Positions 3,412-27,438 of a stretch of 64,000 nt of DNA are shown piece after piece (within the stretch, counting starts at the first letter, position 1; the number at the start of each line of letters is the position of its first letter). The notes below the pieces were generated by a model. The model had not been told where the DNA came from, ran no database searches, and was given only the letters and a program-made list of their open reading frames with translations. Source of the stretch: Roseateles puraquae (lineage in GTDB: Bacteria; Pseudomonadota; Gammaproteobacteria; Burkholderiales; Burkholderiaceae_C); the NCBI RefSeq assembly GCF_002205845.1, contig NZ_NISI01000002.1:558001-622000 (forward strand), given 5' to 3'. Made by a program: the position numbers and the translations under genes.

Positions 3412-3574
3412 CGATGTCTCCTTGTGGGGTCTTCTTGGCGGGGAACGATCAGTGCGCCTGACATGGCCGGCAGGGCGGCCGCTCCCAGACGCAGCCAGTC
3501 ACGCTAGCACCCGCTTTGCGGGGTGCCTTGCGGAAATTCCCTCTGTGTGCGCTGCAGCATGTTGCTGCGCGCCA

Positions 3575-5203
3575 TCAGTACAGCCGCAGACCCGAGTCGA
3601 AGTGCCAGGTGCGGCGGATCTCGATCACGTCGTATTCGCGCGCGAGGGCCGGCGGGAAGGCCGGGTAGTTGGCCTGGGCTTCGATGAGGCGGCGGATGGC
3701 ATCGTCCACCGCCGGCACGCCGCTGGAGCGCACCACCGTGATCGACTCCACCGTGCCGTCGGCCCGGATGGCCACGGTCACCAGCGCGTCGCTGTGCGGC
3801 TGGCGCACCACGTCGCGGATCAGCTCGAAGGCGTTGCCCAGCTGCAGCTTGCGCGCCCAGGCCTCCGCATAGAGCACCATCTCGGCATTCGCATCGGCGC
3901 GGCCGAACAGCCGCCCGCGGCGCAGCGTGCTCCAGGACGACGGCAGGTTGGACTGCGCCTGGCGTGCGGCATCGCGCCGGGCGGCCTCTTCATTGAGCTG
4001 CTGGCCGATGGCGCGCAGGCGCGCTTCACGCTGCTCTTCGGCAGCCTTGGCCTCCGCCAGCCGGGCGGCTTGCGCACGGGCAGCCTCCTCCCGGAGCGCG
4101 GCCTGACGTGCGGCTTCCTGGCGCAGCGCCTCTTGTCGGGCGAACTCTTGCCGGGCGGCTTCCTGTCGCGCCGCCTCCTGCCGCAGCGCCTGCTGGCGGG
4201 CCGCCTCGGCCTGGGCGGCCTCCCGGCGTGCGGCCTCCTGCTGGGCTTGTTGGGCTTGTTGGGCGGCCTCCCGCCGCGCTGCCTCCTGGCGCTCGGTCTC
4301 CTGGCGGGCGGCGGCCTGACGGGCCTGGGCCAGGCGTTCAGCCTCCAGCCGCTGGGCTTCCTGGCGGGTCGCCTCCTGCCGGGCGGCCTCCGCGCGCGCT
4401 GCCGCCTGCTGTTCAGCTGCCAGCCGCTCGGCGGCCTGCTGGGCCGCGAGCTTTTGCTCAGCCAGCTTCTGCTCGGCCAGCCGTTGTTCAGCGGCCTTCT
4501 GCTCCGCCGCCAGGCGCGTGGCTTCCTGCCGCTCGGCCTCGGCCTGGGCGCGGGCCGTCACCAGACGCTGGGCCTGCTGCCGCTGTTCCTGCGCCAGTTG
4601 CTCGGCCTCGCCGCGGGCGCGGTCGAGCTGGGCGAGGTCGGCCGTGCGACTGGCCGGGTCACGCGGCGCGAGGGGCTCGCGCACCGCGCGCAGCCGGGTC
4701 AGCTCGCCGGTGGCGCTGGACGCGGCCTCGAAGGCGGCCACCACCGGTGCCGAGGCAGGCAGCGCGGCAGGCACCGTCCAGCGCGGGTCGGCCGCCTTGG
4801 CCACGGCGATCAGGTCGGGCGCCGAGACGGTCTCGGGTGCGGCAAGCGTCGGCGGCGCGGGGGTGTCGGCTGGGTCGTTCGTGGCGGGCCCGGTCGGCGC
4901 GGGGGCGGGGATGTCGGCCGTGGTGGTCGGGGGCGTGGGGGCGGGGTCAGCGGGCGGCTGGGCCGGCATGTCGGTCGGCATGGCAGTCGGCTCCTCGGGC
5001 GCCACCAGCACCACCCGCAGGTCGGGCACCTCGGCGCGGCGCGCCTGCCAGGGCAGGGTCAGGCCGGGCAGGCCCAGGCGTTCACCGCCGAAGGTCAGGC
5101 TCAGCAGCAGCCCGTGCAGGGCCAGCGAGACCAGCAGCGCCCGCGTCGGGCCGGGCGACTGGCGCCGGGCCCGGGCGACCGGGGCGGTCGACCAGCGGCT
5201 CAA
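3575..5203 (-). CDS. TolA/TonB-like energy-transducing envelope protein
   Basis: 542-residue protein with the classic TolA/TonB layout. It has a short cytoplasmic N-terminus and one membrane segment (about residues 22-40, ALLVSLALHGLLLSL), then a Pro-rich stretch. A very long Ala/Gln/Glu/Arg helical region follows (about 200-420, repeating EAARQEAARR-type heptads). The C-terminus is a TonB-type domain (about 450-535, VTVAIRADGTVESITVVRSS). It should span the periplasm and couple proton-motive force from an ExbBD/TolQR-type motor to outer-membrane partners. No exbB/exbD or tolB/pal lies nearby, so its partner system is unknown. The repetitive helix creates long spurious reading frames on the opposite strand. 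Confidence 0.8.
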   Translation of the reverse strand: MSRWSTAPVARARRQSPGPTRALLVSLALHGLLLSLTFGGERLGLPGLTLPWQARRAEVPDLRVVLVAPEEPTAMPTDMPAQPPADPAPTPPTTTADIPAPAPTGPATNDPADTPAPPTLAAPETVSAPDLIAVAKAADPRWTVPAALPASAPVVAAFEAASSATGELTRLRAVREPLAPRDPASRTADLAQLDRARGEAEQLAQEQRQQAQRLVTARAQAEAERQEATRLAAEQKAAEQRLAEQKLAEQKLAAQQAAERLAAEQQAAARAEAARQEATRQEAQRLEAERLAQARQAAARQETERQEAARREAAQQAQQAQQEAARREAAQAEAARQQALRQEAARQEAARQEFARQEALRQEAARQAALREEAARAQAARLAEAKAAEEQREARLRAIGQQLNEEAARRDAARQAQSNLPSSWSTLRRGRLFGRADANAEMVLYAEAWARKLQLGNAFELIRDVVRQPHSDALVTVAIRADGTVESITVVRSSGVPAVDDAIRRLIEAQANYPAFPPALAREYDVIEIRRTWHFDSGLRLY

Positions 5204-5386
5204 GCCGGCTCCACGCCGGGCCGCCCGCGCACCGGGGAGGGCTGAAGCGGGGCGGGCAGGGATTGAGGGCGCATGTCGCCATTGTCGTCACCCGGCGCCC
5301 CCTCAAATGCGGGTGGCCCGCAAGCAGGGTGTCGCTTTCCGGGGCCGGATGTCGTCTATTCAGACAAGCCCGTCACGGAGGCCCTC

Positions 5387-5662
5387 ATGAAGTCGATGAA
5401 CATCTCCCGCCGCCTGCCCTCCCTCCAAGCGTTCCTGGCCCGCCGCCCTTCGCGCGAGCGCCACGACCCGAGCCTGGACACCTGCATGCCGGACGATGCC
5501 GAGCTGGCCGACCTGCAGCGCCTGGCCCAGTCGCTGCGCCAACCCCGGTCGTCGGCGCATCCGAGGCCGCTGAGCCGGCAGGACATCGAGCTCGCGCTGG
5601 ACGCCGGCACCCGGCGCTACTTCCCGCCGCGTGGTGAGACGGAGGTGCTGGAGCGCCACTGA
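5387..5662 (+). CDS. Small hypothetical protein (91 aa)
   Basis: Begins at an ATG preceded by GGAG about 7 bases upstream. The product is 91 residues, basic at the N-terminus (MKSMNISRRLPSLQAF) and hydrophilic throughout, with no signal peptide or membrane segment. It lies between two minus-strand genes and is therefore transcribed separately. Codon usage and the ribosome site support a real gene. The function is not recognised. Confidence 0.55.
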   Translation: MKSMNISRRLPSLQAFLARRPSRERHDPSLDTCMPDDAELADLQRLAQSLRQPRSSAHPRPLSRQDIELALDAGTRRYFPPRGETEVLERH

Positions 5663-5686
5663 CCCGGGCACGGCCGGGCTGCCGGC

Positions 5687-6619
5687 TCAGACCGGCGTCA
5701 GCAGGGCATCGCCCCGCGCCAGCGCGTCGACGTTGGCGATGAAGTTCACCACCGTCGCCCGGATGGCCTGGGGCGACCAGCCGGCCACGTGCGGTGTCAG
5801 GATGACGTTGTCCAGGCCGAGCAGGGCCTGGGGCGGCGAAGGCTCGCCTTCATAGACATCGAGCGCCGCGCCGGCAATCGCGCCCGCGCGCAGGGCCGCA
5901 GCCAGCGCCTCGGTATCCACACAGCTGCCGCGGGCGATGTTGACCACATGCCCGCCCGGCCCCAGAGCCTGCAGGACAGCCGCATTCACGAGGTGCTTCG
6001 TGCCCGCACCGCCCGGCGTGGCGACGACGAGGTCGTCGGCCCAGGCGGCCAGCGACAGCGGGCTGTCGAACCACGTGGCCGTGCCGGCGTCGTCGCGCGG
6101 GCGGCGGTTGTGATAACCGATGACCATGCCGAAGGCCTCGGCACGGCGCGCGATCTTGCGGCCGATACCGCCCAGGCCCACGATGCCCAGGCGCCGCCCG
6201 CCGAACTGCGGGTACAGCGGCAGTGCGTCCCGCCACAGGCCAGCGCGCACCGCCGCGCCTTGCTGCGGCAGCGCACGCACGCTGGCCAGCAACAGGGCCA
6301 GCGTGTGGTCGGCCACGCAGTCGTCGTTGGTGCCGGCGCCATTGCACACCGGGATGCCGCGCGCGCGGGCGGCGGCCACGTCCAGGTTCTCGTAGCCGGC
6401 GCCCTGGGCCGCCAGCAGCTTCAGGCGGGGCAGGGCTGCGATCTCGTCGGCCCGAAAGCCGGTCGCGCCGTTGGTCAGCACCAGTTCGATCTCGTCGGCA
6501 TGGGCCGCGATGGCGGCCGCGCGGCGGGGCGCGTCGGGGGCGTCGATGACGCGAAAGCGTTCGTGCAGCAGGGCCTTGTGGTCTTCGGCAATCGACACGA
6601 GCAGCAGCAGGGTGGTCAT
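5687..6619 (-). CDS. D-isomer-specific 2-hydroxyacid dehydrogenase (glyoxylate/hydroxypyruvate reductase type)
   Basis: 310-residue NAD(P)-dependent oxidoreductase. The start at MTTLLLL gives the normal family length; longer upstream starts add non-conserved sequence. The Rossmann motif GLGGIGRKIARRAEAFG lies near residue 150, the substrate Arg region VVNIARGS near 235, and the catalytic Glu/His pair in DVYEGEP and LTPHVAGWS near 260-285. Family members interconvert 2-keto and D-2-hydroxy acids such as glyoxylate, hydroxypyruvate or phenylpyruvate; the exact substrate is uncertain. It is divergent from the M13 peptidase gene, sharing a promoter region of about 100 bp. Confidence 0.88.
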   Translation of the reverse strand: MTTLLLLVSIAEDHKALLHERFRVIDAPDAPRRAAAIAAHADEIELVLTNGATGFRADEIAALPRLKLLAAQGAGYENLDVAAARARGIPVCNGAGTNDDCVADHTLALLLASVRALPQQGAAVRAGLWRDALPLYPQFGGRRLGIVGLGGIGRKIARRAEAFGMVIGYHNRRPRDDAGTATWFDSPLSLAAWADDLVVATPGGAGTKHLVNAAVLQALGPGGHVVNIARGSCVDTEALAAALRAGAIAGAALDVYEGEPSPPQALLGLDNVILTPHVAGWSPQAIRATVVNFIANVDALARGDALLTPV

Positions 6620-6719: not shown

Positions 6720-8786
6720 ATGAAACGACTGCTGCTCCCTGCGCTGCTGGCCGCCACCCTGGCCCACGCGTCCGGCCCCTCACCCCAGGACACGCCGCTC
6801 CAGACCCTGCCCTACACCCCCACGCTGGACGTGACGGTCATGGACCGTACGGTCGACCCGTGCGAGGACCTCTACCGCTTCGCGTGCGGGGCCTGGTCCA
6901 AGACCAACCCCATCCCGGCGGACGAGTCGCGCTGGTCGGTCTACGCCAAGATGGCCCGCGACAACCAGCGCTACCTGTGGGGCGTGCTGAACACGCTGGC
7001 CGCACCGGCACCCGCGGCGGGCGAGCGTTCGGTCAACCAGGCCAAGCTCGGCGACTACTTCGCCAGCTGCATGGACGAGACCGCGGTGCAGGCCGCCGGC
7101 CTCAAGCCGCTGCAGCCACTGCTGGCGCGCATCGACGGCCTGAAGGACCGTCGCGAGCTGCCCGCCCTGCTGGCCGAGCTGCACCTGGCCGCCGGCAATG
7201 AGCGTCTGTTCTTCGGCTTCAGCGCCGGGCAGGACTTTGCCGACGCCACACGCCAGATCGCCTTCGCCTACGCGGGCGGCCTGGGCCTGCCCGACCGCGA
7301 CTACTACCTCAAGCGCGACGCCAAGACCCTGCAGATCCGCACCGCCTACGAGGCGCATGTGGCGCGTACCTTCGAGCTGCTGGGCGAGACGCCCGCCGCC
7401 GCCAAGGCCGCCGCACGCAGCGTGCTGGCCACCGAGACGGTGCTGGCGCGGGCGTCGCTGTCCAAGGTCGACAAGCGTGACCCCTACAAGACCTTCCATG
7501 TGGTGGATGCCCGCGGCCTGCAGGCGCTGATGCCCGGCTTCGACTGGGCCGCCTACCAGACCGCGCTGGGCACCCCGCCCGGCCAGGCGCGCTACAACGT
7601 GACCGAGCCGGCCTTCTTCAAGGCGTTGGGTGCCCGGCTGCAGCGGCTGCCGCTCGCCGAGCTCAAGACCTATCTGCGCTGGCAACTCACCAGCAGCCTG
7701 AGCCCCGCGCTGGACAACGGCTTCGTGCAGGCCAACTTCGACTTCTACGGCCAGGCCCTGACCGGCACGCCGCAGCTCAAGGCGCGATGGAAGCGCTGCG
7801 TGGAGCTGGTGGACGTGCAGCTCGGCGAGGCCCTTGGCCAGGAGTTCGTGGCGCGCAACTTCACGCCCGACCTGAAGGCCGCCACCGTGCAGATGACCGA
7901 CGAGATCGAGGCCGCCATGGCGCGCAGCATCGACAGCCTCGGCTGGATGAGCGCCGAAACCAAGGCGCGCGCCCAGGCCAAGCTCAAGGCCATCGTCAAC
8001 AAGGTGGGCTACCCCGAGCGCTGGCGCGACTACGGCAGCTACGCGGTGCAGCGCGGCGACTTCCTCGGCAACGTGGTGCGTGGCAACGTGTTCGAAGCCC
8101 GGCGTCGCCTGGCCAAGATCGGCCAGCCCCTGGACCGCGGCGAATGGAACATGACCCCGCAGACGGTCAATGCCTACTACGACGCGCAGATGAACGACAT
8201 CAACTTCCCGGCCGCCGTGCTGCTGCCGCCGCTGTACGACCCGCGCATGGACGAGGCGCCCAACTACGGCAATACCGGCGGCACCATCGGCCATGAGCTC
8301 ACCCACGGCTTCGACGACGAAGGCCGGCAGTTCGATGCCCAGGGCAACCTCAAGAACTGGTGGACGAAGAAGGACGGCCAGCAGTTCGAAAAGCGCGCCG
8401 CCTGCGTGGCCGACCAGTACGCGACCTACACCGTGGTTGACGACATCAAGATCAATTCCAAGCTGACGCTGGGCGAAGACCTGGCTGACCTGGGCGGCCT
8501 GGTGCTGGCCTGGGAAGCCTGGAAGTCGCACATGAAGGGCCGAACGCTGGAGAACCGTGACGGCATGACGCCTGAGCAGCGCTTCTTCGTGGGCTTTGCG
8601 CAGTGGGACTGCGGCGAGGCCCGCCCCGAGGCCCTGCGCGTGAAGGCCCGCATCGACCCGCACTCGCCGTCGCAATGGCGCATCAACGGCGTGGTGGTCA
8701 ACATGCCGGAGTTCGAGCAGGCCTTCGCGTGCAAGCCGGGCGCCAAGCTCGTGAAGAAGCCGGGCGAGCACTGCAAGGTGTGGTGA
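6720..8786 (+). CDS. M13-family zinc metallopeptidase (neprilysin/PepO-like)
   Basis: 688-residue exported endopeptidase. The signal peptide is MKRLLLPALLAATLAHAS, which fixes the start at this ATG. M13 hallmarks are in order: the Cys-rich PCEDLYRFACG near residue 50, NAYYDAQMNDINFPAA near 485, the zinc site GHELTHGFDDEG near 523, the third-ligand motif GEDLADLGG near 583, and the terminal CKVW. Length and order match a full-length M13 enzyme. It should cleave short peptides in the periplasm or at the cell surface. It is monocistronic. Confidence 0.93.
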   Translation: MKRLLLPALLAATLAHASGPSPQDTPLQTLPYTPTLDVTVMDRTVDPCEDLYRFACGAWSKTNPIPADESRWSVYAKMARDNQRYLWGVLNTLAAPAPAAGERSVNQAKLGDYFASCMDETAVQAAGLKPLQPLLARIDGLKDRRELPALLAELHLAAGNERLFFGFSAGQDFADATRQIAFAYAGGLGLPDRDYYLKRDAKTLQIRTAYEAHVARTFELLGETPAAAKAAARSVLATETVLARASLSKVDKRDPYKTFHVVDARGLQALMPGFDWAAYQTALGTPPGQARYNVTEPAFFKALGARLQRLPLAELKTYLRWQLTSSLSPALDNGFVQANFDFYGQALTGTPQLKARWKRCVELVDVQLGEALGQEFVARNFTPDLKAATVQMTDEIEAAMARSIDSLGWMSAETKARAQAKLKAIVNKVGYPERWRDYGSYAVQRGDFLGNVVRGNVFEARRRLAKIGQPLDRGEWNMTPQTVNAYYDAQMNDINFPAAVLLPPLYDPRMDEAPNYGNTGGTIGHELTHGFDDEGRQFDAQGNLKNWWTKKDGQQFEKRAACVADQYATYTVVDDIKINSKLTLGEDLADLGGLVLAWEAWKSHMKGRTLENRDGMTPEQRFFVGFAQWDCGEARPEALRVKARIDPHSPSQWRINGVVVNMPEFEQAFACKPGAKLVKKPGEHCKVW

Positions 8787-8852
8787 GGCGGCGCGCAGAC
8801 GCACGGCTGCGGCATGCCGCTGACACCTGGGGAGTCAGCCGGCGGCCGCGCG

Positions 8853-9134
8853 TCACGTCGGCTCGGTCACCAGTACCTCGACATGCAGCCCGGCATCCAC
8901 AGCCATGTTGACCAGGGCATCCAGGCTGAACTGGTTGATCTTGCCGCGCAGCAGGTCGGAGATGCGGGGCTGAGACACGCCGAGTCGACGTGCGGCCTCG
9001 ATCTGCGTCCAGCCGCGCGCCTTGATCTGCGTTTCCAGCGCGATCATGAGCGAGGACCGCAGCTTCATGTTCTCGGCCTCGGCCGGCGACTCGGAAAGAG
9101 CATCCCAGACGTTGGTGAAGGTCTTGTCGGTCAT
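8853..9134 (-). CDS. XRE/HigA-type antitoxin
   Basis: 93-residue helix-turn-helix protein. The HTH is near residues 40-62 (WTQIEAARRLGVSQPRISDL), followed by the HigA-type sequence FSLDALVNMAVDAG and a short tail. It overlaps the preceding toxin gene by 4 bp (ATGA), giving toxin-first order as in higBA modules. Proteins of this family neutralise the toxin and repress their own promoter; the candidate operator lies upstream of the toxin gene. Confidence 0.85.
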   Translation of the reverse strand: MTDKTFTNVWDALSESPAEAENMKLRSSLMIALETQIKARGWTQIEAARRLGVSQPRISDLLRGKINQFSLDALVNMAVDAGLHVEVLVTEPT

Positions 9135-9460
9135 GGCCTCAACTCCTGCATGAGTTCACGGTAACGCTTCTGCGCCAGCGCCAAGTCGGCCCGGCTGGTC
9201 GCCTGCGTCTTCTTCTGGAAACAGTGAAGCACGTAAACGCCGGCGCTGAACTTGGCGACATAGACCACCCGGAATGCGCCGGCCTGATCTTGAATCCGAA
9301 TCTCCATCACGCCGGCCCCGACCGTGCTCATCGGCTTCCAATCATGCGGCTCCTCGCCGAGCTGGATGCGATTGAGCTGGTAGCCCGCTTCGCGCATCGC
9401 CGAACCAGGAAACGCTTTCAGGTCCGCCAGTGAACTGCCTTTGAAGGTGAGTGGCTTCAT
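9131..9460 (-). CDS. RelE/HigB (Gp49-like) toxin
   Basis: 109-residue protein of the phage-derived Gp49-like/HigB group. It contains the conserved strand region VMEIRIQDQAGAFRVVYVA and the C-terminal helix VLHCFQKKTQATSRADLALA, whose Phe-Gln-Lys-Lys-Thr motif is typical. Such toxins are ribosome-dependent mRNA interferases. It is the first gene of a two-gene operon with the HTH antitoxin and is of normal length, so the pair looks intact. Confidence 0.85.
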   Translation of the reverse strand: MKPLTFKGSSLADLKAFPGSAMREAGYQLNRIQLGEEPHDWKPMSTVGAGVMEIRIQDQAGAFRVVYVAKFSAGVYVLHCFQKKTQATSRADLALAQKRYRELMQELRP

Positions 9461-9472
9461 CGCGCGCTTGCA

Positions 9473-9495
9473 GCATATCGGTTTTTGTATATTGC
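9473..9495. promoter_or_regulatory. Candidate HigBA operator/promoter
   Basis: An imperfect inverted repeat (GCATAT ... ATATTGC around a T-run) lies 12-35 bp upstream of the toxin start, in a locally AT-rich patch within GC-rich surroundings. Position and symmetry fit autoregulation by the HTH antitoxin. This is inferred from position only. Confidence 0.35.
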
Positions 9496-9611
9496 CTCAA
9501 GCTGGGCTTTGTCGCTGCTCCTCCCGTTGTTTGCGTGCCGCTTGCCAGGCGCCAGGTCTGGAGCAGAAGTGATTCGCTTCGGGGCGTTGGCGCCGGCCCG
9601 CGGATGCCGTG

Positions 9612-10775
9612 TCAGGCCTGCACGAGGTTGCGCCCCTGGCTCTTCGCGCGGTAGAGCGCCGCATCGGCCCGGGCCAGCACGGCGCGGGCGTCGGCGTCCC
9701 CAGGCTCGGCCTCGGCAATGCCGAAGCTCGCGCTCAGGGGCCAGTCCTGCGCCGCCCAGCGCAGCGGGGCCTCTTCCACCAGCATGCGCATGCGCTCGGC
9801 CACCAGGGCGGCGCCGGTGAGGTCGGTGTCGGTCAGCAGCAGGCAGAACTCCTCGCCGCCCAGGCGGCCGAAGCGGTCCACCTCGCGGATGCAGGGGCGC
9901 AGTTCCTCCACCATCTGGCGCAGCGCGGCGTCGCCTGCTGCATGACCCAGGGTGTCGTTGAGGTGCTTGAAACGGTCCATGTCGATCATGACCAGGGCGT
10001 AGCCGCGACCGCGCAGGAAGCCCGCATGGGCCTGCTCCAGCGCGGCATCGAAGGCGCGGCGGTTGAGGGTGCCGGTGAGCGGGTCGCGCTCCAGCAGGCG
10101 CTCGATGCGCAGGATGAGCCGCATCATCACCATGAAGGCCGCGGTCGCGTTCTGCAGCAGGGTCAGCACCAGCGAGCCCCACAGGAAGACGAGGTTGAAC
10201 CCGGTCGGCACCCGCATGTCCGGCGTGTGGCCGGGGTTGATGAAGGTCTCCACCGCGCGGGCGCCCATCAGCACCGCGATCAGGAACAGGGGGAGCGTCA
10301 GCGGCGCGGGCGACAGCCGGCCGTCCGTGCGGTGGCCCAGTGAGCGGCGGGCCCGCAGGCCTGCCATCAGCGCCAGGCTGGCACCCGCCACGCTGACGAT
10401 GCGGGACTGCCATCGCAGGTCGCCTTCATAGGGCAATTGCAGCAGCGCAAGGGCGGCGATCAGCACGACGGCGGCGCTCGCCCGCCAGGCCAGTCGTCGT
10501 GTGGTGATGTCTGATACGGCCGCCCCCAGCAGCGCGAACGACGTGATGATCAGCAGGTCGCTTGGCCAGTAGGTGAAGGTATCGGGCAACTGGCCGCGCA
10601 GCGCGTGCAGCGTCAGCGAGCCGGCCGCGGCGGCATTGCTGCAGGCCAGGGCGAGCGAGGCCCGCGGTGCCACCCGCGCGACCAGGGCCATGGCCAGCCA
10701 GACGATGGTGGCGGTGGCGGCGATCAGGATGACGCCGGCCAGCAGCGTCAGGGTCTGGGCGGACGTCACCGTCAT
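9612..10775 (-). CDS. Membrane diguanylate cyclase (GGDEF), second of a tandem pair
   Basis: 387-residue protein. The first 200 residues hold about six hydrophobic helices (a membrane sensor of unknown signal), followed by a GGDEF domain. The active-site loop reads GGEEF, preceded five residues upstream by the inhibitory I-site REVD. The substrate-site helix DPLTGTLNRRAFDAAL and the FKHLNDTLGHAAGD segment are intact. It should make cyclic di-GMP from two GTP with product inhibition. The ATG overlaps the stop of the upstream paralogue (ATGA), so the two are coupled. Confidence 0.9.
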   Translation of the reverse strand: MTVTSAQTLTLLAGVILIAATATIVWLAMALVARVAPRASLALACSNAAAAGSLTLHALRGQLPDTFTYWPSDLLIITSFALLGAAVSDITTRRLAWRASAAVVLIAALALLQLPYEGDLRWQSRIVSVAGASLALMAGLRARRSLGHRTDGRLSPAPLTLPLFLIAVLMGARAVETFINPGHTPDMRVPTGFNLVFLWGSLVLTLLQNATAAFMVMMRLILRIERLLERDPLTGTLNRRAFDAALEQAHAGFLRGRGYALVMIDMDRFKHLNDTLGHAAGDAALRQMVEELRPCIREVDRFGRLGGEEFCLLLTDTDLTGAALVAERMRMLVEEAPLRWAAQDWPLSASFGIAEAEPGDADARAVLARADAALYRAKSQGRNLVQA

Positions 10776-19193: not shown

Positions 19194-21005
19194 TCAGGGC
19201 CGATGGCGCCGCGCACGGGTCCACGCCGCTGCCGTGAGCGCGGCCAGCACCAGCAGCCCCGCGGCCGGTTCCGGCACGCCGTGGGCATCCAGGGCCATCA
19301 GGCTGAGGCGAACGGCGTCAGCGTCGATGGTCAGGACATAGCGGAAGAAGGGGTCGAGGTTCTCGATGGAGAACAGTGATTCGTTCAGGCCGTCGAGCGA
19401 GCCCGCGAGGATCAGGTCAAACGCCAACCCATCCATGAAGTCGAAGTCGCGATCGAAAGCCACGGTGACGTACTGCAGGCCGTCGAATGCGGCCCGGCCG
19501 GTGACATCAAACGCGCCGTAGTCCGACGGCGTGCCGATCAGGAAACGGAGGTGATCGGTGCTGACCGCCAGTTGTTGGCTCTTCACTTGATGCGCCACCT
19601 GGATGGCATCGGGGGCTGTCAGTGCCAGCGCGCCGTCAACGTCCATCGTCGAGTCGATGGTGAGACGGGTGCCCGCTGACAGTGAAGCGTGGCTGCTGGT
19701 GCTGACGGGGCCGACGACCGAGAGCGTGGCGCCCCCTGCGGCTGTGACGACGCCCTCGAAGGTGGTCGCGCCGAGGGTCAGCCCCACGCCGGCGGAGAGG
19801 TCCGTGCCGCGCCCCGCCCGGATCGTGCCGGACAGGTGAAGATCGTTCCCCGCGACGGCGCTGAAGTTCTGCGTGGCGTTGAGAGGCCCGCTGAAGCTCA
19901 GGTCGGTGCCCGCGGTCATGCCGATGCTCGTTCCTGCCGCCATGGAGGAATTGGTGATGTGGATGCCTTCAGCCGCCTGGAAGTTGATGGCCTGGCCTGC
20001 GCTGACGACGCTGCCGCTGAGCGCCAAGGACCTGTCTGCGAAAGCGCCGAGGTGGGTGCCGGCCGTGATGGAGGCACGGCTGCCGGTCACGTCGGTGCCG
20101 GCGGCGATGGTCAGCGTGTTGCCGACATTCAGGCTTGAGTTGATCGCCAGGCTGGTGCCGGCCGACAGCGATGCCTGGCCGCTCGCGGTGACCGGGCCGA
20201 TGACGGCCATCGTTGTGCCCGCCGTTGCGGCGACGCCGCCCTGAAAGGTGGCGGCGTCCAGTGTCAGCGACAAGCCGGCCGTGAGCGTGGTGCCGCGGCC
20301 GGTCTGGATGCTGCCGGACAGCCGCAGGTCGTGGGCGGCCGTGGCACTGAAGACTTGAGCGGCGTCGACTTGCCCATCGAAGGTCAGGTTCGTGCCGGCC
20401 GTCATGCCGATGCTGGTCCCGGCCGTGAAGGCCGAGCCCGTGAGGCTCATGCTGTTGCCCGCGTCGAGCGAGATCGACCGGGCGGCCGTGGTGATGCTCT
20501 CACTCAATTCGAGCGCGCCGCCCGCGACGTAGCTCGCGCTGGTGCCGGCGGTGACCATCGCGCGATGGCCGTTCAGGGCGGTGCCCGCGGAGAGCGCCAA
20601 GCCCGTGCCGGCCGAGAGCGCGCCACCCATCTGCAGCATGTCGCCCGCGCTCAGCACCGTGCTCGCGCCCGATACCAGCGACCGCGACACCAACAGATTC
20701 TGGCCCGCCGTGACGGTGAGGTTGTTGTAGATGGTGAGATCGCCGACAGCGACGTTGCGACCGGCCGTCAGCGCGCCGTTGCCTGTCGCGACATTCACAC
20801 CTGAGGTGCCCAGGTCGCGCCCGGCTTCAGCCGTCAGGTGTCCGCTGACATGGACCGACGACAGCAGCAGATCGACCGGCGAGGTGTAGACCACGTCGGC
20901 CTGCGCTGCCGGGAGCAGGGCCCACACGGCCAAGAGTGATGCCATCCGGCGCAGGAGGACCAACGGGCAGGGTACGGCCTTGTAAGAGTTGCAGTGAGCG
21001 CTCAT
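19194..21005 (-). CDS. PEP-CTERM protein with haemagglutinin-like repeats
   Basis: 603-residue exported protein. The signal peptide ends ALLPAAQA near residue 36. Most of the chain is Ala/Gly/Ser/Thr-rich beta-helix-like repeats with recurring TAGTS, SAGT and TLTAG motifs reminiscent of filamentous haemagglutinins. The C-terminus has the PEP-CTERM sorting signal: VPEP, a hydrophobic helix and an Arg tail (RARRHRP). Residues about 190-295 and 360-465 are near-duplicates. It is probably processed by an exosortase and exposed in the extracellular matrix; no exosortase lies in the window. It converges on the LysR gene. Confidence 0.85.
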   Translation of the reverse strand: MSAHCNSYKAVPCPLVLLRRMASLLAVWALLPAAQADVVYTSPVDLLLSSVHVSGHLTAEAGRDLGTSGVNVATGNGALTAGRNVAVGDLTIYNNLTVTAGQNLLVSRSLVSGASTVLSAGDMLQMGGALSAGTGLALSAGTALNGHRAMVTAGTSASYVAGGALELSESITTAARSISLDAGNSMSLTGSAFTAGTSIGMTAGTNLTFDGQVDAAQVFSATAAHDLRLSGSIQTGRGTTLTAGLSLTLDAATFQGGVAATAGTTMAVIGPVTASGQASLSAGTSLAINSSLNVGNTLTIAAGTDVTGSRASITAGTHLGAFADRSLALSGSVVSAGQAINFQAAEGIHITNSSMAAGTSIGMTAGTDLSFSGPLNATQNFSAVAGNDLHLSGTIRAGRGTDLSAGVGLTLGATTFEGVVTAAGGATLSVVGPVSTSSHASLSAGTRLTIDSTMDVDGALALTAPDAIQVAHQVKSQQLAVSTDHLRFLIGTPSDYGAFDVTGRAAFDGLQYVTVAFDRDFDFMDGLAFDLILAGSLDGLNESLFSIENLDPFFRYVLTIDADAVRLSLMALDAHGVPEPAAGLLVLAALTAAAWTRARRHRP

Positions 21006-22053: not shown

Positions 22054-23238
22054 TCAGGGGCAGGGTGGCTGGCCCGGCATCTGCTGCAGCAAGTCGATGC
22101 GGGGCCCCGCAGCGAGTACCTTCAGGTCGGGCGTGAAGCGCAGCAGCCGGCTGCTGTCGATCTGGCGCAGCGGCCAGCCGAGGGTGCGCAGCGCCTGGGC
22201 GGTCAGCCGCCCGCGGGCGACGCCCGTGCTGCCACTGAAGTTCACGGCCATGCTGACTTGCTGGCCGCCCTGCTGACCGCTGACCTGGGCATTGACCACA
22301 TGGCTGCTGCCGGGGGCGGGCGGTTTGTCGAGCTGCACTTCGAAGCTGAGTGCCACGGCCTGTACGCAGTTCGCGCCCATCTCCGGGGTCATGCCGATGA
22401 AGCGAAGTTGCGCCTCGGCGCTGGCCACGTCGACCGACTGGGTCAGCACCAGTGGTGCGCGGTCGGGCTGAGGCTGCCACTGCACCTCGATGCGATGCAT
22501 GCCGGTCTGCGCGGGTTGCCACTGGGCGAAGAAGACGCCGGGCTCGATGACGGCCTGGGGGCCGGACGGCGTGGGCAGCCGCGCATCTGCGGTGGTGTCG
22601 ATGACGGCCTGGCCGCGGGCGTCCAGCACCCGCACCGCAAGCGTCGGGCGCTGGGTGATTGTGTCGCCCATGTCGTAGGCGCGCAGCGTCAGCAGCTGCG
22701 GCTGACCCACGCCCGGCGCGGCGGGTTGGGTCCAGAGGGCGAGTGAGAAGCGAGGATTGACCCGGTAGGTGAACAGCAGCCGGGCCGCGCGTGCATCCGT
22801 GGCCGTGCGTTCCAGCACCAGTTGCCAACGGCCCGCGGCAGGGTTGAGCACCGGGGGCAGTTGATAGGCGTCGCCCAGCTCGGGCTGCTTGATCTCGGCG
22901 GCCGGCTGGCGGTTCAGTTGCTGCGGTGTGCGGCGCCAGACGGTGCGGCCACCGGGGTCGATCAGCGACAGCGCCGCCAGGCTGGCGGTGGTGCGGAGTT
23001 CGCTGAAGCCGAGGTAGCCATCCACCCGGGCGGGCACCTCCAGCGGGATGACGTGTCGCGCCTGCGTCGGCAGCGCCTGCTGCACGAGGATGGCGGGTGG
23101 CGAGGGCGGCACGAGCGTGGGCAGGCCGGGCGGAGAGGTCTGTGCCGCCGCCCAAGTCACTGCGCCACCCATCAGGCTGAGGAGGGCGACGCGGCGCAGG
23201 CGGAGGGTCAGTTCTTGGGGCAGGCGCCGGCTGAACAT
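22054..23238 (-). CDS. Exported beta-sandwich protein, related to the upstream dockerin protein
   Basis: 394-residue protein with a signal peptide (MFSRRLPQELTLRLRR then a hydrophobic core ending AAAQ, near residue 33). The mature part appears to be repeated beta-sandwich domains. The first (about 55-160, LSLIDPGGRTVWRR) parallels TLTLIDPSGTPRLLP in the upstream 570-residue protein, and a second repeat (LTLRAYDMGDTITQRPTLAV) follows the same pattern. It lacks the dockerin tail. The start overlaps the end of the upstream gene by 31 bp, so it belongs to the same transcript. The function is unknown. Confidence 0.75.
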   Translation of the reverse strand: MFSRRLPQELTLRLRRVALLSLMGGAVTWAAAQTSPPGLPTLVPPSPPAILVQQALPTQARHVIPLEVPARVDGYLGFSELRTTASLAALSLIDPGGRTVWRRTPQQLNRQPAAEIKQPELGDAYQLPPVLNPAAGRWQLVLERTATDARAARLLFTYRVNPRFSLALWTQPAAPGVGQPQLLTLRAYDMGDTITQRPTLAVRVLDARGQAVIDTTADARLPTPSGPQAVIEPGVFFAQWQPAQTGMHRIEVQWQPQPDRAPLVLTQSVDVASAEAQLRFIGMTPEMGANCVQAVALSFEVQLDKPPAPGSSHVVNAQVSGQQGGQQVSMAVNFSGSTGVARGRLTAQALRTLGWPLRQIDSSRLLRFTPDLKVLAAGPRIDLLQQMPGQPPCP

Positions 23239-24920
23239 TGGCGGTTCACAATCTCGCGGGCATCGAGCAGGTCGATTTTGCCGTCGCCGTTGATGTCTCG
23301 GCGGTCGCCCGGGATGCGCGGCACCTGGCCGCGTGACTGCAGCACGATGTCGCGGTCAGCGGCCCCGACGGCGCCGTCGCCGTTGAGGTCGCTGGTGATG
23401 GTCGGGAAGAACTGCCAGCGCGAGAAGTCGCTCGCGGTCACCGGCACGCGCGAGGCCTGGGCGCTGCGGCCCCCGCTGACCACCAGCACGGAGTCGATCG
23501 TGAACGGGCCGTCGCTGCTTTGCAGCCGGTTCGCCAGCACGCTGGCCGAGACGTTGTTGCTGCCCACGGCGAGGTTCGGGCTGAGACCGAACTGCCCCAC
23601 TTCCACCCCCTTGTTGTCGATGACCTTGAACGACACCTGGTAGGCGCCCGCGGTGGTCACGCGGATGGGCAGTGTGAAGTCGAGCTGGCCGATGAACTTG
23701 CCCCGCAGTGGCGCGGCCACGGTGGCGCTGGCGTTGATCTCGATCGGGTCGGCGCACAGCTGGCTAAGCGCAATGCTCGGGAAGCTGTACGCACTGGCCT
23801 TGCGCAGTTCCAGCCAGGGCTGGCCGCTGATGAAGTTGAGCACGTCCAGCGGGTCGACCGTGAACACGCCACCCTCGGCCAGCTGGGTGCGGATCTCGGC
23901 CGCCGTGAAGCGGGTGCTGGTGTTCAACGCGCCAGGCGCCGTGAGCGTGGCGCCGGTGCGCTTGACGACGGTCTTGCCGCTGGGGCTGCGCAGCGTGGCC
24001 ACCGTGGCGTAGTCGCCCGCGAGGCTGGCGCTGCCGGCGGTGTTCACGTCCAGCGAGGCCACGCAGTTGGCGGTGCCGCGGTTGATGACGCCGCTGATGC
24101 TGCCGAAGGTGTAGTTGGCCGGCACGATGTCGATGCTGGCCTGCGCGGAGCGCCGCGCCAGTTGGCCACCCGGCAGCAGGATGCTCGCCTCGCCCAGCAC
24201 CTGGTAGTTGCCGGGTTCGGTGAAGGTCGTGCCCTTGCTGTAGATGCCGTCGCCGGCCTTGCCGTCGAAGTCGGTCGCCTGGCCGGAGTCCACGGCCTGC
24301 AGCACGGTGGTGGGCGAGCCGGGCTTGCTGATGGTGAGCGTGGGTGACAGGCCGCCGATCGGCTGACCGTTGTTGACTGCCAGCAGACCCAGCGGCACCG
24401 GCTGGCCGACGCGGAAGACCTGGCCCGTCAGGGCCAGGCCGACCTGCACCGGGGTGCGGCTCAGCACGGTCACGACGGCTGCTGTGGCGTGGGGCGAGGC
24501 CGGGAAGTCGAAGCGCAGCGTCCAGTCGCCATCGGCCGGGTTGGTGATCTCGGGGGTCAGGAACTGCCGGCCCGGCAGCGGCGGGCTGAGCGTGCTCCCC
24601 TCCAGCAGCGCGACGCCGGCATCACCCGGCAGCAGCCGCGGCGTACCGCTGGGGTCGATGAGGGTCAGCGTCACGTCCGGCACCGGCACCGTGGCCTGCA
24701 GCCGGAAACCGTCCAGCGCCGAGACCGGCAGCGTGAACTGCACCGAGGTCTGGCCGCTGACGATGGTGGCGCCCAGCGTGACCGGGGCGCCGACGTTGAT
24801 CTGGGCGCTCTTGCCCGTCTGCGCCAGCGCCGGTGTGGCGTGGAAGGCCAGCGGGAGGCAGGAGAGGGCCACCGCGACCGCGATGCGGCCACGGGACAGT
24901 GGCTTGCTTTGCTTGCTCAT
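23208..24920 (-). CDS. Exported protein with C-terminal type I dockerin
   Basis: 570-residue secreted protein (signal peptide ends PALAQ near residue 34). The bulk is beta-sandwich-like sequence with a calcium-type loop DFDGKAGDGIYSKG near 220. The last 55 residues form a dockerin: two calcium loops, DLNGDGAVGAAD and DINGDGKIDLLD, spaced about 25 residues apart, ending REIVNRQCSAGACPKN. Dockerins bind cohesin domains with high affinity, and a cohesin gene sits two genes upstream in the same direction. The role is probably structural in a surface complex; no catalytic site is recognised. Confidence 0.85.
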   Translation of the reverse strand: MSKQSKPLSRGRIAVAVALSCLPLAFHATPALAQTGKSAQINVGAPVTLGATIVSGQTSVQFTLPVSALDGFRLQATVPVPDVTLTLIDPSGTPRLLPGDAGVALLEGSTLSPPLPGRQFLTPEITNPADGDWTLRFDFPASPHATAAVVTVLSRTPVQVGLALTGQVFRVGQPVPLGLLAVNNGQPIGGLSPTLTISKPGSPTTVLQAVDSGQATDFDGKAGDGIYSKGTTFTEPGNYQVLGEASILLPGGQLARRSAQASIDIVPANYTFGSISGVINRGTANCVASLDVNTAGSASLAGDYATVATLRSPSGKTVVKRTGATLTAPGALNTSTRFTAAEIRTQLAEGGVFTVDPLDVLNFISGQPWLELRKASAYSFPSIALSQLCADPIEINASATVAAPLRGKFIGQLDFTLPIRVTTAGAYQVSFKVIDNKGVEVGQFGLSPNLAVGSNNVSASVLANRLQSSDGPFTIDSVLVVSGGRSAQASRVPVTASDFSRWQFFPTITSDLNGDGAVGAADRDIVLQSRGQVPRIPGDRRDINGDGKIDLLDAREIVNRQCSAGACPKN

Positions 24921-24928
24921 GGCGGGCC

Positions 24929-26455
24929 TCAGCGCAGGGAAATGGTCTTGTCCAGGATCTTGCGAACGTTGTCGGCGTTCTTGACCGTGGTGTGGTTGGT
25001 GTTGGCGTTGTTGCCCAGCGGCGTGCCCCAGCCGGGGTTGGCGCTGGTGATGCCGACGACCACGTCATTCGGGTTGGGCCCCGGCGCGGCGGTCACGGCA
25101 TAGGTCAGGACCGTGATGAAGGGGCGGTTGGGGTCGAAGGTCTGGATCATTTCCAGTTGCACCTGCGTGGCCGAGGCATACGTGCAGATCGACTGGTAGG
25201 CCATGCGCAGGCGGTTGTAGACGTAGCCGCCCAGCAGGGGCACGGACGACGCCGGGTTCATCGGGTCGATCTGCGCATCGGTGGGTGGGCCGCTGCACTG
25301 CGGGCCGGCGTCGGCGCCGAAGGTGAAGGTGTTGTTGACGTTGCCGCGCAGCCCCGCGTTGCGAGCGTCGATGGCAGCCCAGGAGGTCAGGTCGTTCAGG
25401 CCCGGAGGCTGCGGCCCACCGGCGCCGGTGTTGCTGAACAGGCCCGCCACCGTGCTGCTGACGAACTGCTGGGCGAAGTCGTTGGAGGCGCCGCCCTGGC
25501 GGGTGTAGATGTCAGCCACCTGGCGCTGCAGCAGCGTCAGGTCAGCGACCACCGAGCCCCAGTGCGGCGTGGACAGCGTGCCCAGCGACAGCACCTCGAA
25601 GGGGGGCGCCGCGGCCGCGAGGGCCTGGCTGTCCAGGCCGCCCTTGCTGTGCGCGATGAGGTTGACCTTCTTGGCCTTGTAGGGCGACAGATAGGCCTGG
25701 ATCTGGCCGCGCAGGTTGGCCGCGTTGGTGCCTACGGCGCCGTTGGGGTTGGCGGTGGAGAAGCGCTCGTACACCACGCCCGCCTCGTCCAGGGTCTTGA
25801 GCACGCCGGGCGAATCCTTGTCGAGCCAGGTGTCGCGGTTGGAGGCAATGCCGTGGGCCAGCACGTAGGGGAAGGCGGCGTCGAACTCGATGCCCACCCA
25901 GTCGATGCTCATGCACCAGACCTCGTCGCTGTTGGCGGTGTCGATGTCGACCCGGAACTCATTGACCGCATCGACCGCCTTCTCGCGCCCAGCGAACTTC
26001 ACCTTGGCGATGTCGATCTCGAAGCTGTCGTTCACCCACGTGTTGTTGAAGCCGGACAGCGTCTTGATGAAGTCGCCGTTCCAGGACAGGCGGTCGATCT
26101 CGGGCTCGTAGGTGCCGTCGGTCACCGCCTTGTCGTCGATGTCGTACACCGGGAAGGAGATCTTGGCGCGTGCGCCCACCACCTTGTCGGCGATCAGCTT
26201 GCCCAGCTTGTCTTGCAGGATGTAGCCGTTGCCGTCGAGCATGGTGTCGTTGACCGGAGCCGGCACCTTGAACTGCACGATGAGCGGGCCGCCGCCGCGG
26301 TAGGTGCAGCCGGTGTCCAGGCCGCCGCCGCTGTTCTTCACGTACTTGCCCATGTCCTCGCTCGGGGGCGGGAAGGGCGACGAGGTCTGGGCATGGCTTG
26401 CGCACACGCAAGCTCCCAGCAGCCAGGCGGCGAGCGCCTGCAGGCTAGGCTTCAT
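24929..26455 (-). CDS. Secreted lipase/esterase (alpha/beta hydrolase)
   Basis: 508-residue exported hydrolase (signal peptide ends CASHA, near residue 22). The N-terminal 190 residues form a beta-rich region. The hydrolase core begins FPYVLAHGIASNRDTW near residue 197 (oxyanion His-Gly), with the nucleophile elbow IAHSKGGLDS near 258 and LSLGTLSTPHWGS following, as in triacylglycerol lipases and PGAP1-like esterases. The start has a GGAG-type ribosome site. It lies between the cohesin and dockerin genes in one direction. No dockerin is seen in its own C-terminus. Confidence 0.85.
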   Translation of the reverse strand: MKPSLQALAAWLLGACVCASHAQTSSPFPPPSEDMGKYVKNSGGGLDTGCTYRGGGPLIVQFKVPAPVNDTMLDGNGYILQDKLGKLIADKVVGARAKISFPVYDIDDKAVTDGTYEPEIDRLSWNGDFIKTLSGFNNTWVNDSFEIDIAKVKFAGREKAVDAVNEFRVDIDTANSDEVWCMSIDWVGIEFDAAFPYVLAHGIASNRDTWLDKDSPGVLKTLDEAGVVYERFSTANPNGAVGTNAANLRGQIQAYLSPYKAKKVNLIAHSKGGLDSQALAAAAPPFEVLSLGTLSTPHWGSVVADLTLLQRQVADIYTRQGGASNDFAQQFVSSTVAGLFSNTGAGGPQPPGLNDLTSWAAIDARNAGLRGNVNNTFTFGADAGPQCSGPPTDAQIDPMNPASSVPLLGGYVYNRLRMAYQSICTYASATQVQLEMIQTFDPNRPFITVLTYAVTAAPGPNPNDVVVGITSANPGWGTPLGNNANTNHTTVKNADNVRKILDKTISLR

Positions 26456-26505
26456 GGAGGATCTCCGGTGAAGGAAAAGGGTGGCCTGATGTCTTCAGGC
26501 CGGGG

Positions 26506-27438
26506 TCAGGTGGCGGAGAAGGTCGGGGCGTTGACCTTGATGACGTCGCCCTTGGGCACCGCTTCGCCGCGCAGGCGCTGGCCGACCTTGTCGGGCGTCA
26601 GTGCCGGGCCTACGCTGACCCAGAACTCGCGGCCATCTTCCGCCCGCACCTTGGCACGGGTGCCGGCCACCTCCACCACGCGCACGTCGATGGGTGTGGG
26701 TTGGGCGGGCGTGTCGGCCTTGGTCTGGGCCTGGCTGGCCAGCGGTGCGGCCAGGGCCAGGCTCAGCGCCAGCGCTGCACGGCGTTGGCGGCCGCTGCGA
26801 CGGCGCGCCCAGCCGGCCCCGGCAAGGGCCGCCAGGGCCAGCGCGGGAGCGCCGGGTTCGGGCACCGTGTTCTCGCCACCGCCACCTTGCGGGTCGATGA
26901 TGAGCAGGGCCCGGGCGCTGCCGAAATCCATCGTGATCGGCCGCCCGTTGGCGTCGGAGAACGTGAGCAGCGGGTCTGCGAGATCGATGGCCAGCGCCGT
27001 GCCGCTGCTGGCCTGCAGGGCCACGAAGCTCAAGGTCAGGAAGTCGAAGCCGTCCGGCTGCTGCGCGTCGAGCACGGCGGCCGAGTTGCCGCTCAGGCCG
27101 AAGGCGTCGACGATGCCACCCGCCGCCGCGGCATCCCCGAAGAAGCCGAGGCTGCCCACCTCGGGCAGGTCCAGCGCATTGGCGCCTGTGGCGGCGTCCA
27201 GGAAGCCGAAGCTCTGGAAGCTCAGCAGACTGTTGTCGTACTGCAGGTCGAGGTCGAAGCCCGCCAGCGAGCCGACGCCTCCCTGATGCAGCCCCGACAC
27301 CGCGAAGGTCAGCGTGACCACCTGCCCGACCGACACGCGGTTGCTGGAACTGGACACGTTCACCGTGGCCGCCGACACCACGCCAACCCAGCACATCACT
27401 GCGCAGGCAGCGATGCGACGAAGACCCTTCAGCCGCAT
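26506..27438 (-). CDS. Cohesin-domain PEP-CTERM protein with unusual C-terminal extension
   Basis: 310-residue protein. The signal peptide ends GVVSAA near residue 24. A cohesin domain spans about 25-180: VNVSSSSNRVSVGQVVTLTF, then GFDLDLQYDNSLLSFQSFGF. A PEP-CTERM signal follows near 205 (VPEPGAPALALAALAGAGWA, then RRR). Unusually the protein continues for about 95 residues: a second hydrophobic stretch (AALALSLALAAPLASQA) and a small soluble domain ending VNAPTFSAT. The start is fixed by GGGAGGAACTC before the ATG. It is the first gene of the cohesin-lipase-dockerin run. The cohesin could anchor the dockerin protein at the surface. Confidence 0.85.
   Translation of the reverse strand: MRLKGLRRIAACAVMCWVGVVSAATVNVSSSSNRVSVGQVVTLTFAVSGLHQGGVGSLAGFDLDLQYDNSLLSFQSFGFLDAATGANALDLPEVGSLGFFGDAAAAGGIVDAFGLSGNSAAVLDAQQPDGFDFLTLSFVALQASSGTALAIDLADPLLTFSDANGRPITMDFGSARALLIIDPQGGGGENTVPEPGAPALALAALAGAGWARRRSGRQRRAALALSLALAAPLASQAQTKADTPAQPTPIDVRVVEVAGTRAKVRAEDGREFWVSVGPALTPDKVGQRLRGEAVPKGDVIKVNAPTFSAT

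Follow-up and report, generated by a model that had tools for sequence, protein, structure and literature searches.

What does a cohesin that carries a PEP-CTERM sorting signal do next to a dockerin-bearing protein in a gram-negative bacterium? The question is raised by four compact genes at positions 22054-27438 of the stretch analyzed here (the window, 64,000 nucleotides of Roseateles puraquae DNA within a genome of 6.06 Mb; the betaproteobacterium Pelomonas sp. Root405 is a relative that matches at the locus). A preliminary interpretation made from the letters of the DNA, hereafter the sequence-only reading, had described a co-directional run composed of a cohesin + PEP-CTERM gene, a lipase, a dockerin-bearing protein and a dockerin-less paralogue; all four are found on the minus strand where it placed them, and both loops of the dockerin read as it had quoted them. 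In our analysis, the locus probably represents one version of a display module of two genes that recurs in related bacteria, is sorted by an exosortase and exchanges its cargo from species to species. The sequence-only reading is partly supported: it was right in its core, i.e., a cohesin-dockerin pair combined with a sorting signal, and it missed the recurrence of the module.

The recurrence was followed with cohesin profiles in 299 genomes of the family, a class sample of 369 genomes and a phylum sample of 359 genomes (expectation value [E] cut-offs of 1e-5, 1e-8 and 1e-8, respectively). The family survey yielded 21 places in 17 of the 299 genomes, comprising four of the window type, a place designated L020, 12 other genes that combine a cohesin with PEP-CTERM, three with PEP-CTERM and no cohesin (L054-L056), and G036:C32, which was left out. 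All 12 of the further family cohesin + PEP-CTERM genes have a dockerin gene 26-55 nucleotides upstream; eight of these dockerins were recognized by their loop pattern and four by inspection of the upstream frames, and these sequences contributed to the dockerin profile. This profile was built from family-level sequences only, and the sequences of the class and phylum surveys form no part of it. In the class sample, 14 of the 15 new places carry a dockerin gene (13 by profile, and L096 by a loop pair noticed afterwards), as do all eight new places of the phylum sample, each of which belongs to the class of the window. The two surveys together gave 23 new places, and in 22 of them (21 by profile, one by loop pair) a same-strand dockerin gene is adjacent to the cohesin gene or separated from it by a single gene; the two genes lie on one strand in all 36 tabulated cohesin-dockerin pairs. 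The dockerin of L095 is weak (E 0.007), and in L093 one gene of ∼240 codons separates dockerin from cohesin. The latter is a small frame (8259-8987, minus strand of that locus) with a signal-peptide-like start, positioned like the lipase of the window.

As a control, 30 PEP-CTERM genes other than those of the module, mostly best-scoring matches, were taken from 13 of these genomes. None had a dockerin within 1.5 kb, a flank that would overlook a dockerin placed distally in a long downstream gene or lying past a PEP-CTERM gene that is itself long. The sequence-only reading had called for a search of genomes for co-occurrence of the genes, and had held that unlinked homologues with one domain decayed would speak against it; the linkage at 22 of 23 independent places came out in favor of the idea, with the exception of a single locus, L088, considered below. 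Its description of the pairing as uncommon holds in terms of numbers, as such cohesins turned up in 14 of 299 family, 16 of 369 class-sample and 10 of 359 phylum-sample genomes, and it does not hold in terms of breadth, as the matches come from 13 families besides that of the window. The loci L020 and L021 were first encountered via a dockerin search and were left out of the linkage counts; the cohesin of L021 was missed by the family-survey profile, and the surveys are therefore incomplete. In the genome of the window, three profile searches converged on one cohesin place, and one recognizable dockerin was detected (the others at E 0.299 or worse), both in this cluster; the Pfam cohesin model alone gave no match in that genome at E 0.001.

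The proteins that bear the dockerin differ widely. Among the 36 tabulated dockerin proteins, 28 were scanned with Pfam and nine with NCBIfam (the second copy of L047, L048, L052 and L089 were left out of both scans). The partners of the dockerin included a subtilase (L087), a GDSL hydrolase (L091), a sorbosone-dehydrogenase-like domain (L083), an M9 collagenase (L115), IgGFc-binding domains (L053 and L084), a VWA7-like protein (L020), immunoglobulin (Ig) and PKD domains (L082 and L114), a glucuronyl-esterase-like domain (L116), a reprolysin-like protease (L118) and nuclease domains (L094, L117, L119 and L120), while some proteins gave no match except the dockerin, or none at all. The dockerin was mostly located at the C-terminus; it was internal in L085 and near the N-terminus of very large frames in L082 (8432-16000, plus strand) and L089 (1-5553, minus strand). 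The former frame is Ig-rich, and the latter has an RHS-like stretch, as judged by eye only. An ending with a pair of cysteines after the second loop (e.g., KCTRPxCA; L043, L121) occurs in 24 of the 36 dockerin proteins and may be characteristic of dockerins of this group. In L047, two dockerin-cohesin pairs stand in tandem (3515-5988 and 7803-10324), with nearly identical dockerins and with cargo bodies that are related but different.

Both domains of the window were identified by profile. The window proteins scored below the Pfam cut-offs for cohesin (19.3 bits; cut-off 24.1), PEP-CTERM (17.4 bits; cut-off 20.7) and dockerin (21.8 bits; cut-off 22.9). The cohesin profile of the relatives matched solved scaffoldin cohesins (3l8q, E 4e-5; E 6.6e-7 with the wider profile), while a profile made from the five window-type cohesin proteins alone gave no match to a solved structure. 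The dockerin profile of the relatives matched the solved cellulosomal dockerin 2y3n_B (E 8e-8), and the tandem DxNxDGxxxxxD loops of a type I dockerin are present and look intact in all six window-type dockerins. Structures were predicted for the sequences of the window and of L008. The model of the dockerin protein is weak (predicted local distance difference test [pLDDT] 55), and its fold search returned mostly Ig-like multi-domain proteins, the best match being 4kh9, a DUF4785 protein, with TM-scores of 0.31 or below among the 50 matches listed; the model thus points weakly to an Ig-like protein of no finer fold identity.

Cohesin-dockerin binding and sorting by PEP-CTERM are both established, and they form the basis of a socket-and-cargo reading of the module. 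The cohesin protein would be exported by the Sec system and retained in the inner membrane through its PEP-CTERM segment, whereupon an exosortase, probably XrtA or XrtB in this bacterium, would process it and deliver the cohesin to the cell surface or into the exopolysaccharide. The neighboring protein, likewise exported by Sec and lacking an anchor of its own, would be captured by calcium-dependent binding of its dockerin, such that the cohesin socket would stay constant while the cargo differs from species to species. In the branch of the window, the cargo would be the multi-Ig protein that is co-encoded with the lipase, and the Ig protein would probably position the lipase or its substrate. 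Floc formation in Aquincola involves a PEP-CTERM protein that probably becomes part of the extracellular polymer (PMC9850573), which makes the matrix a likely location for the socket.

The sorting signals and exosortases of the cohesin-bearing genomes are consistent with this mechanism. In the 12 further family cohesins, PEP-CTERM forms the C-terminus or lies close to it, and PEP is replaced by SEP or AEP in some of them. The 11 NCBIfam families matched at E 0.001 by members of one sequence set (A7) are all of the PEP-CTERM type, none being named for cohesin. The genome of the window has two exosortases, XrtA and XrtB. Exosortases were present in 26 of 29 cohesin-bearing genomes versus 12 of 29 comparison genomes, which were hand-picked, not random, among those without a cohesin match (Fisher p 2e-4), in a count that leaves out the seven new genomes of the phylum sample. 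The distances among cohesins and among dockerins were correlated (r 0.72 for 39 pairs; r 0.40 for 20 distant pairs; L082, L088 and L089 not included, and the dockerin stretch of L118 wrongly cut), a correlation that can come from shared ancestry alone.

Several observations weigh against the display module, among them the choice of comparison genomes and the scope of the exosortase count just given. No exosortase was detected in G423, G494 and G582 (the last 85% complete); G423 is also the genome of L088, in which a cohesin + PEP-CTERM gene has no dockerin within ∼7.5 kb in a genome that is 98% complete, and which is possibly a decayed or differently sorted case. The PEP-CTERM-like ends of several cohesins from the wider taxa were recognized by eye only (VPLP in L083, SAPE in L090, LPTP in L093 and SAPS in L121), and at E 0.01 the Pfam models found PEP-CTERM in 11 and cohesin in nine of the 18 members of another set (A3). 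The model of the cohesin protein of the window is poor (pLDDT 42), with two helices predicted at its hydrophobic segments, and the assignment of the cohesin fold therefore depends on sequence profiles. A dockerin is absent from the lipase. Finally, in the window protein the PEP-CTERM signal is not at the extreme C-terminus, since 96 residues lie beyond the Pfam match; its basic cluster, strong in the window and L018, is weakly developed in L016 and L017, and VPEP is replaced by VSEP in L018 (SEP and AEP also occur in the terminal signals of L047-L049). According to Haft 2006 (PMC1569441), 87% of PEP-CTERM proteins extend by fewer than ten residues beyond the signal, and the very few long-tailed examples may be non-functional. 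Of the cohesin + PEP-CTERM protein put forward in the sequence-only reading, both signatures stand; that reading missed the internal position of the signal. The exosortase-anchored scaffold that it envisaged as holding the dockerin protein is backed by the linkage and by the two exosortases of the genome, while its anchoring is less certain here than elsewhere in the group, the signal being internal.

The stretch that follows the signal is itself conserved. The window protein has all three PEP-CTERM features (PEP motif, hydrophobic stretch and basic cluster), and in all five window-type proteins the signal is followed by a tail, in which a second hydrophobic segment with an AxA-like site at its end (as judged by eye) precedes a conserved domain. 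The tail is coding: compared with L008, it differs at 0.40 of third, 0.12 of first and 0.08 of second codon positions, and its first and second positions are better conserved than their counterparts in the cohesin part; compared with L016 and L018, the three positions differ about equally. The conservation of the tail and the slower change at its first and second positions relative to the cohesin part speak for a function. Within the family, the tail is strongly matched in the same four of 299 genomes as the lipase. The tail profile found nothing better than E 0.6 among solved structures, and five weak stand-alone matches (E 6.6e-5 to 6.9e-4) appear unrelated by eye, those in L061, L063 and L065 running over the apparent signal peptides of other exported proteins.

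How, then, would an internal sorting signal be used? In the display module, the second signal-like helix and the small domain behind it would be removed by signal peptidase, which would leave PEP-CTERM still usable. A broader proposal, which we regard as tentative and less likely than not, combines plug-and-socket display in many bacteria of the class with a frame in the lipase branch that would give two exported proteins, cut by exosortase and signal peptidase, since its internal exosortase signal directly precedes an internal signal peptide and a second domain; an internal start could be a second route in the relatives. It is unlikely, in our estimate, that PEP-CTERM sorting has instead been lost in this branch, with the two segments forming a hairpin in the inner membrane that keeps both cohesin and tail facing the periplasm, where the dockerin protein would also reside and perhaps aid folding or export of the lipase. 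Such a hairpin would account for the conserved tail, for the two hydrophobic segments with their low-confidence helices, for the shared occurrence of tail and lipase, and for the thin basic clusters and the VSEP variant. A dead signal, however, would have no need for the VPEP motif and hydrophobic stretch kept in four of the five proteins, the sister cohesins carry a terminal signal, and the second segment ends in sites resembling those of signal peptidase (by eye). Separate production of the tail protein, by initiation within the cohesin gene and with an ordinary signal peptide of its own, is improbable. It is suggested by an in-frame ATG just ahead of the second segment in four of the five window-type genes (residue 215 in L008, 210 in L016 and L017, and 211 in L018), each with a plausible signal peptide, such that a separate start is possible in those relatives. 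In the window, in contrast, neither ATG nor GTG nor TTG occurs between the PEP motif and residue 252, which lies beyond the second segment, no sequence resembling a ribosome-binding site was seen by eye ahead of the four ATGs, and the frame is unbroken in all five.

The lipase suggests another role for the tail. Lipases of the Burkholderia/Chromobacterium type need the foldase Lif, and the lipase of the window resembles the solved lipases of this type 1qge and 1cvl (family I.1/I.2), over residues 194-307 only. No gene for Lif lies beside it, and the only Lif match of the genome is on another contig (C9). A tail that acts as a membrane-bound chaperone in place of Lif would fit these facts and the co-occurrence of tail and lipase, yet the tail profile lacks a structural match of any strength, and the dockerin protein suits the position of a foldase gene equally well; this reading is very improbable. 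There is also little likelihood that cohesin and dockerin are merely neighbors, co-expressed for another reason, that no longer bind each other. The sub-threshold Pfam scores of both domains in the window would agree with such a loss. Linkage, however, has outlasted the changes of cargo, the calcium-binding loops look intact, and the dockerin is the part common to cargoes of different Pfam families. The display module remains the reading we prefer, and binding, cleavage and location of its components are inferred.

As for the lipase, the suggestion that it is held at the surface was not supported. Its tethering is suggested only by its fixed place, the order cohesin-lipase-dockerin being the same in the window, L008, L016, L017 and L018 (all five genomes). 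At E 1e-20 or better, the lipase was found in four of the 299 family genomes, each time between cohesin and dockerin, and additionally in L008. The paralogue is next in line in L008, whereas its gene has a convergent orientation in L016 and L017; the available stretch of L018 contained no separate copy. One further genome, G249 (L019), has a dockerin fragment at a contig end.

Membership in a cellulosome was rejected, the genome having one cohesin place and one recognizable dockerin. The locus shares with the cellulosomes of Clostridia and ruminococci a cohesin, a type I dockerin, secreted cargo and a likely attachment to the surface, and differs from them in its single cohesin, the pairing of neighboring genes, the gram-negative host and the presence of PEP-CTERM instead of SLH or LPXTG; moreover, its Pfam matches include no glycoside hydrolase or carbohydrate-binding module. 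Cohesins and dockerins beyond the cellulosome were reportedly treated by Peer in 2009. No description of PEP-CTERM with a cohesin or dockerin, or of a dockerin with rhombosortase, was found in the open-access literature, subscription papers (including Peer 2009) being outside that scope. In the same literature, the one paper that brings together exosortase and dockerin concerns methanotrophic archaea. Cohesins and dockerins are on record outside cellulosomes in ANME archaea (PMC9012536) and in Saccharophagus, the latter with unpaired dockerin- and cohesin-like motifs (PMC2386152), and non-cellulosomal use is therefore already known. As far as the accessible text of these reports goes, they concern scattered domains, multi-cohesin proteins or S-layer links, without a linked pair of PEP-CTERM-cohesin and dockerin whose cargo changes. 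With PEP-CTERM/exosortase proteins (Haft 2006, PMC1569441; Aquincola PepA, PMC9850573), the cohesin protein shares a Sec signal, a PEP motif, a hydrophobic stretch, basic residues and a genomic exosortase; it adds a cohesin that could recruit a second protein, and in the branch of the window the signal is internal.

The recurrence of the pair points to a general means of fastening secreted proteins to the surface of the cell or to its slime. The role of PEP-CTERM proteins after sorting is largely open, and a tagged socket, if true, would provide a direct function, namely a docking site at the surface or in the matrix for enzymes and adhesins that the cell secretes. Cohesin-dockerin assembly would extend to a broad gram-negative set, many naturally matched pairs would become available for engineering, and the output of exosortases would be testable by a simple binding assay. 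The internal signal of the window branch puts the requirement for a terminal PEP-CTERM to the test.

The features of the gene run are collected in Table 1. The genes are separated by 50 nucleotides (cohesin-lipase) and 8 nucleotides (lipase-dockerin), and the dockerin gene and the paralogue overlap by 31 nucleotides. A scan for promoters and terminators gave no signal above chance. The paralogue and the dockerin protein share weak similarity (31% over 115 amino acids, E 5e-4, a single pair).

Table 1. Genes and features of the run (window coordinates).
Feature	Position	Strand	Basis and remarks
Cohesin / internal PEP-CTERM / tail protein	26506..27438	-	310 amino acids; open reading frame open to 27501 (possible start)
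N-terminal signal peptide	27370..27438	-	Hydropathy peak; cleavage site by eye
Cohesin domain, approximate limits	26890..27363	-	Pfam PF00963, below cut-off; profile match to PDB scaffoldin cohesins
PEP-CTERM signal (VPEP, hydrophobic stretch, RRR), not C-terminal	26797..26865	-	Pfam, below cut-off; comparison of window-type proteins; hydropathy
Second hydrophobic, signal-peptide-like segment	26725..26781	-	Ends in AxA-like site SQA/Q, by eye
Small conserved C-terminal domain, ~72 amino acids	26509..26724	-	Predicted beta strands, pLDDT ~70 at residues 251-290; no known family
Secreted lipase/esterase	24929..26455	-	N-terminal extension and AHSKGG nucleophile elbow; motif and signal peptide by eye
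Dockerin-bearing Ig-like protein with choice-of-anchor X motif	23208..24920	-	Profile matches; weak model
Choice-of-anchor X motif	24189..24275	-	NF041940, above cut-off
Type I dockerin, two calcium-binding loops	23244..23393	-	Pfam, profile; protein ends in two-cysteine tail C-x4-CP-x-N
Dockerin-less distant paralogue	22054..23238	-	Start overlaps end of dockerin gene

Seven of the 25 cohesin proteins of set A7 match the NCBIfam model for PepA, a flocculation protein (best E 7.8e-9), and this model aligns weakly with residues 43-236 of the cohesin protein of the window (E 0.49); judging by these sequence matches, PepA may be a distant cohesin relative. The genome of the window (G000) gave 50 PEP-CTERM matches at E 0.01 and is therefore a heavy user of PEP-CTERM sorting. 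Another candidate is encoded in the window itself (19194-21005, minus strand), a 603-amino-acid haemagglutinin-repeat-like protein with a normal C-terminal PEP-CTERM, just below the NCBIfam cut-off.

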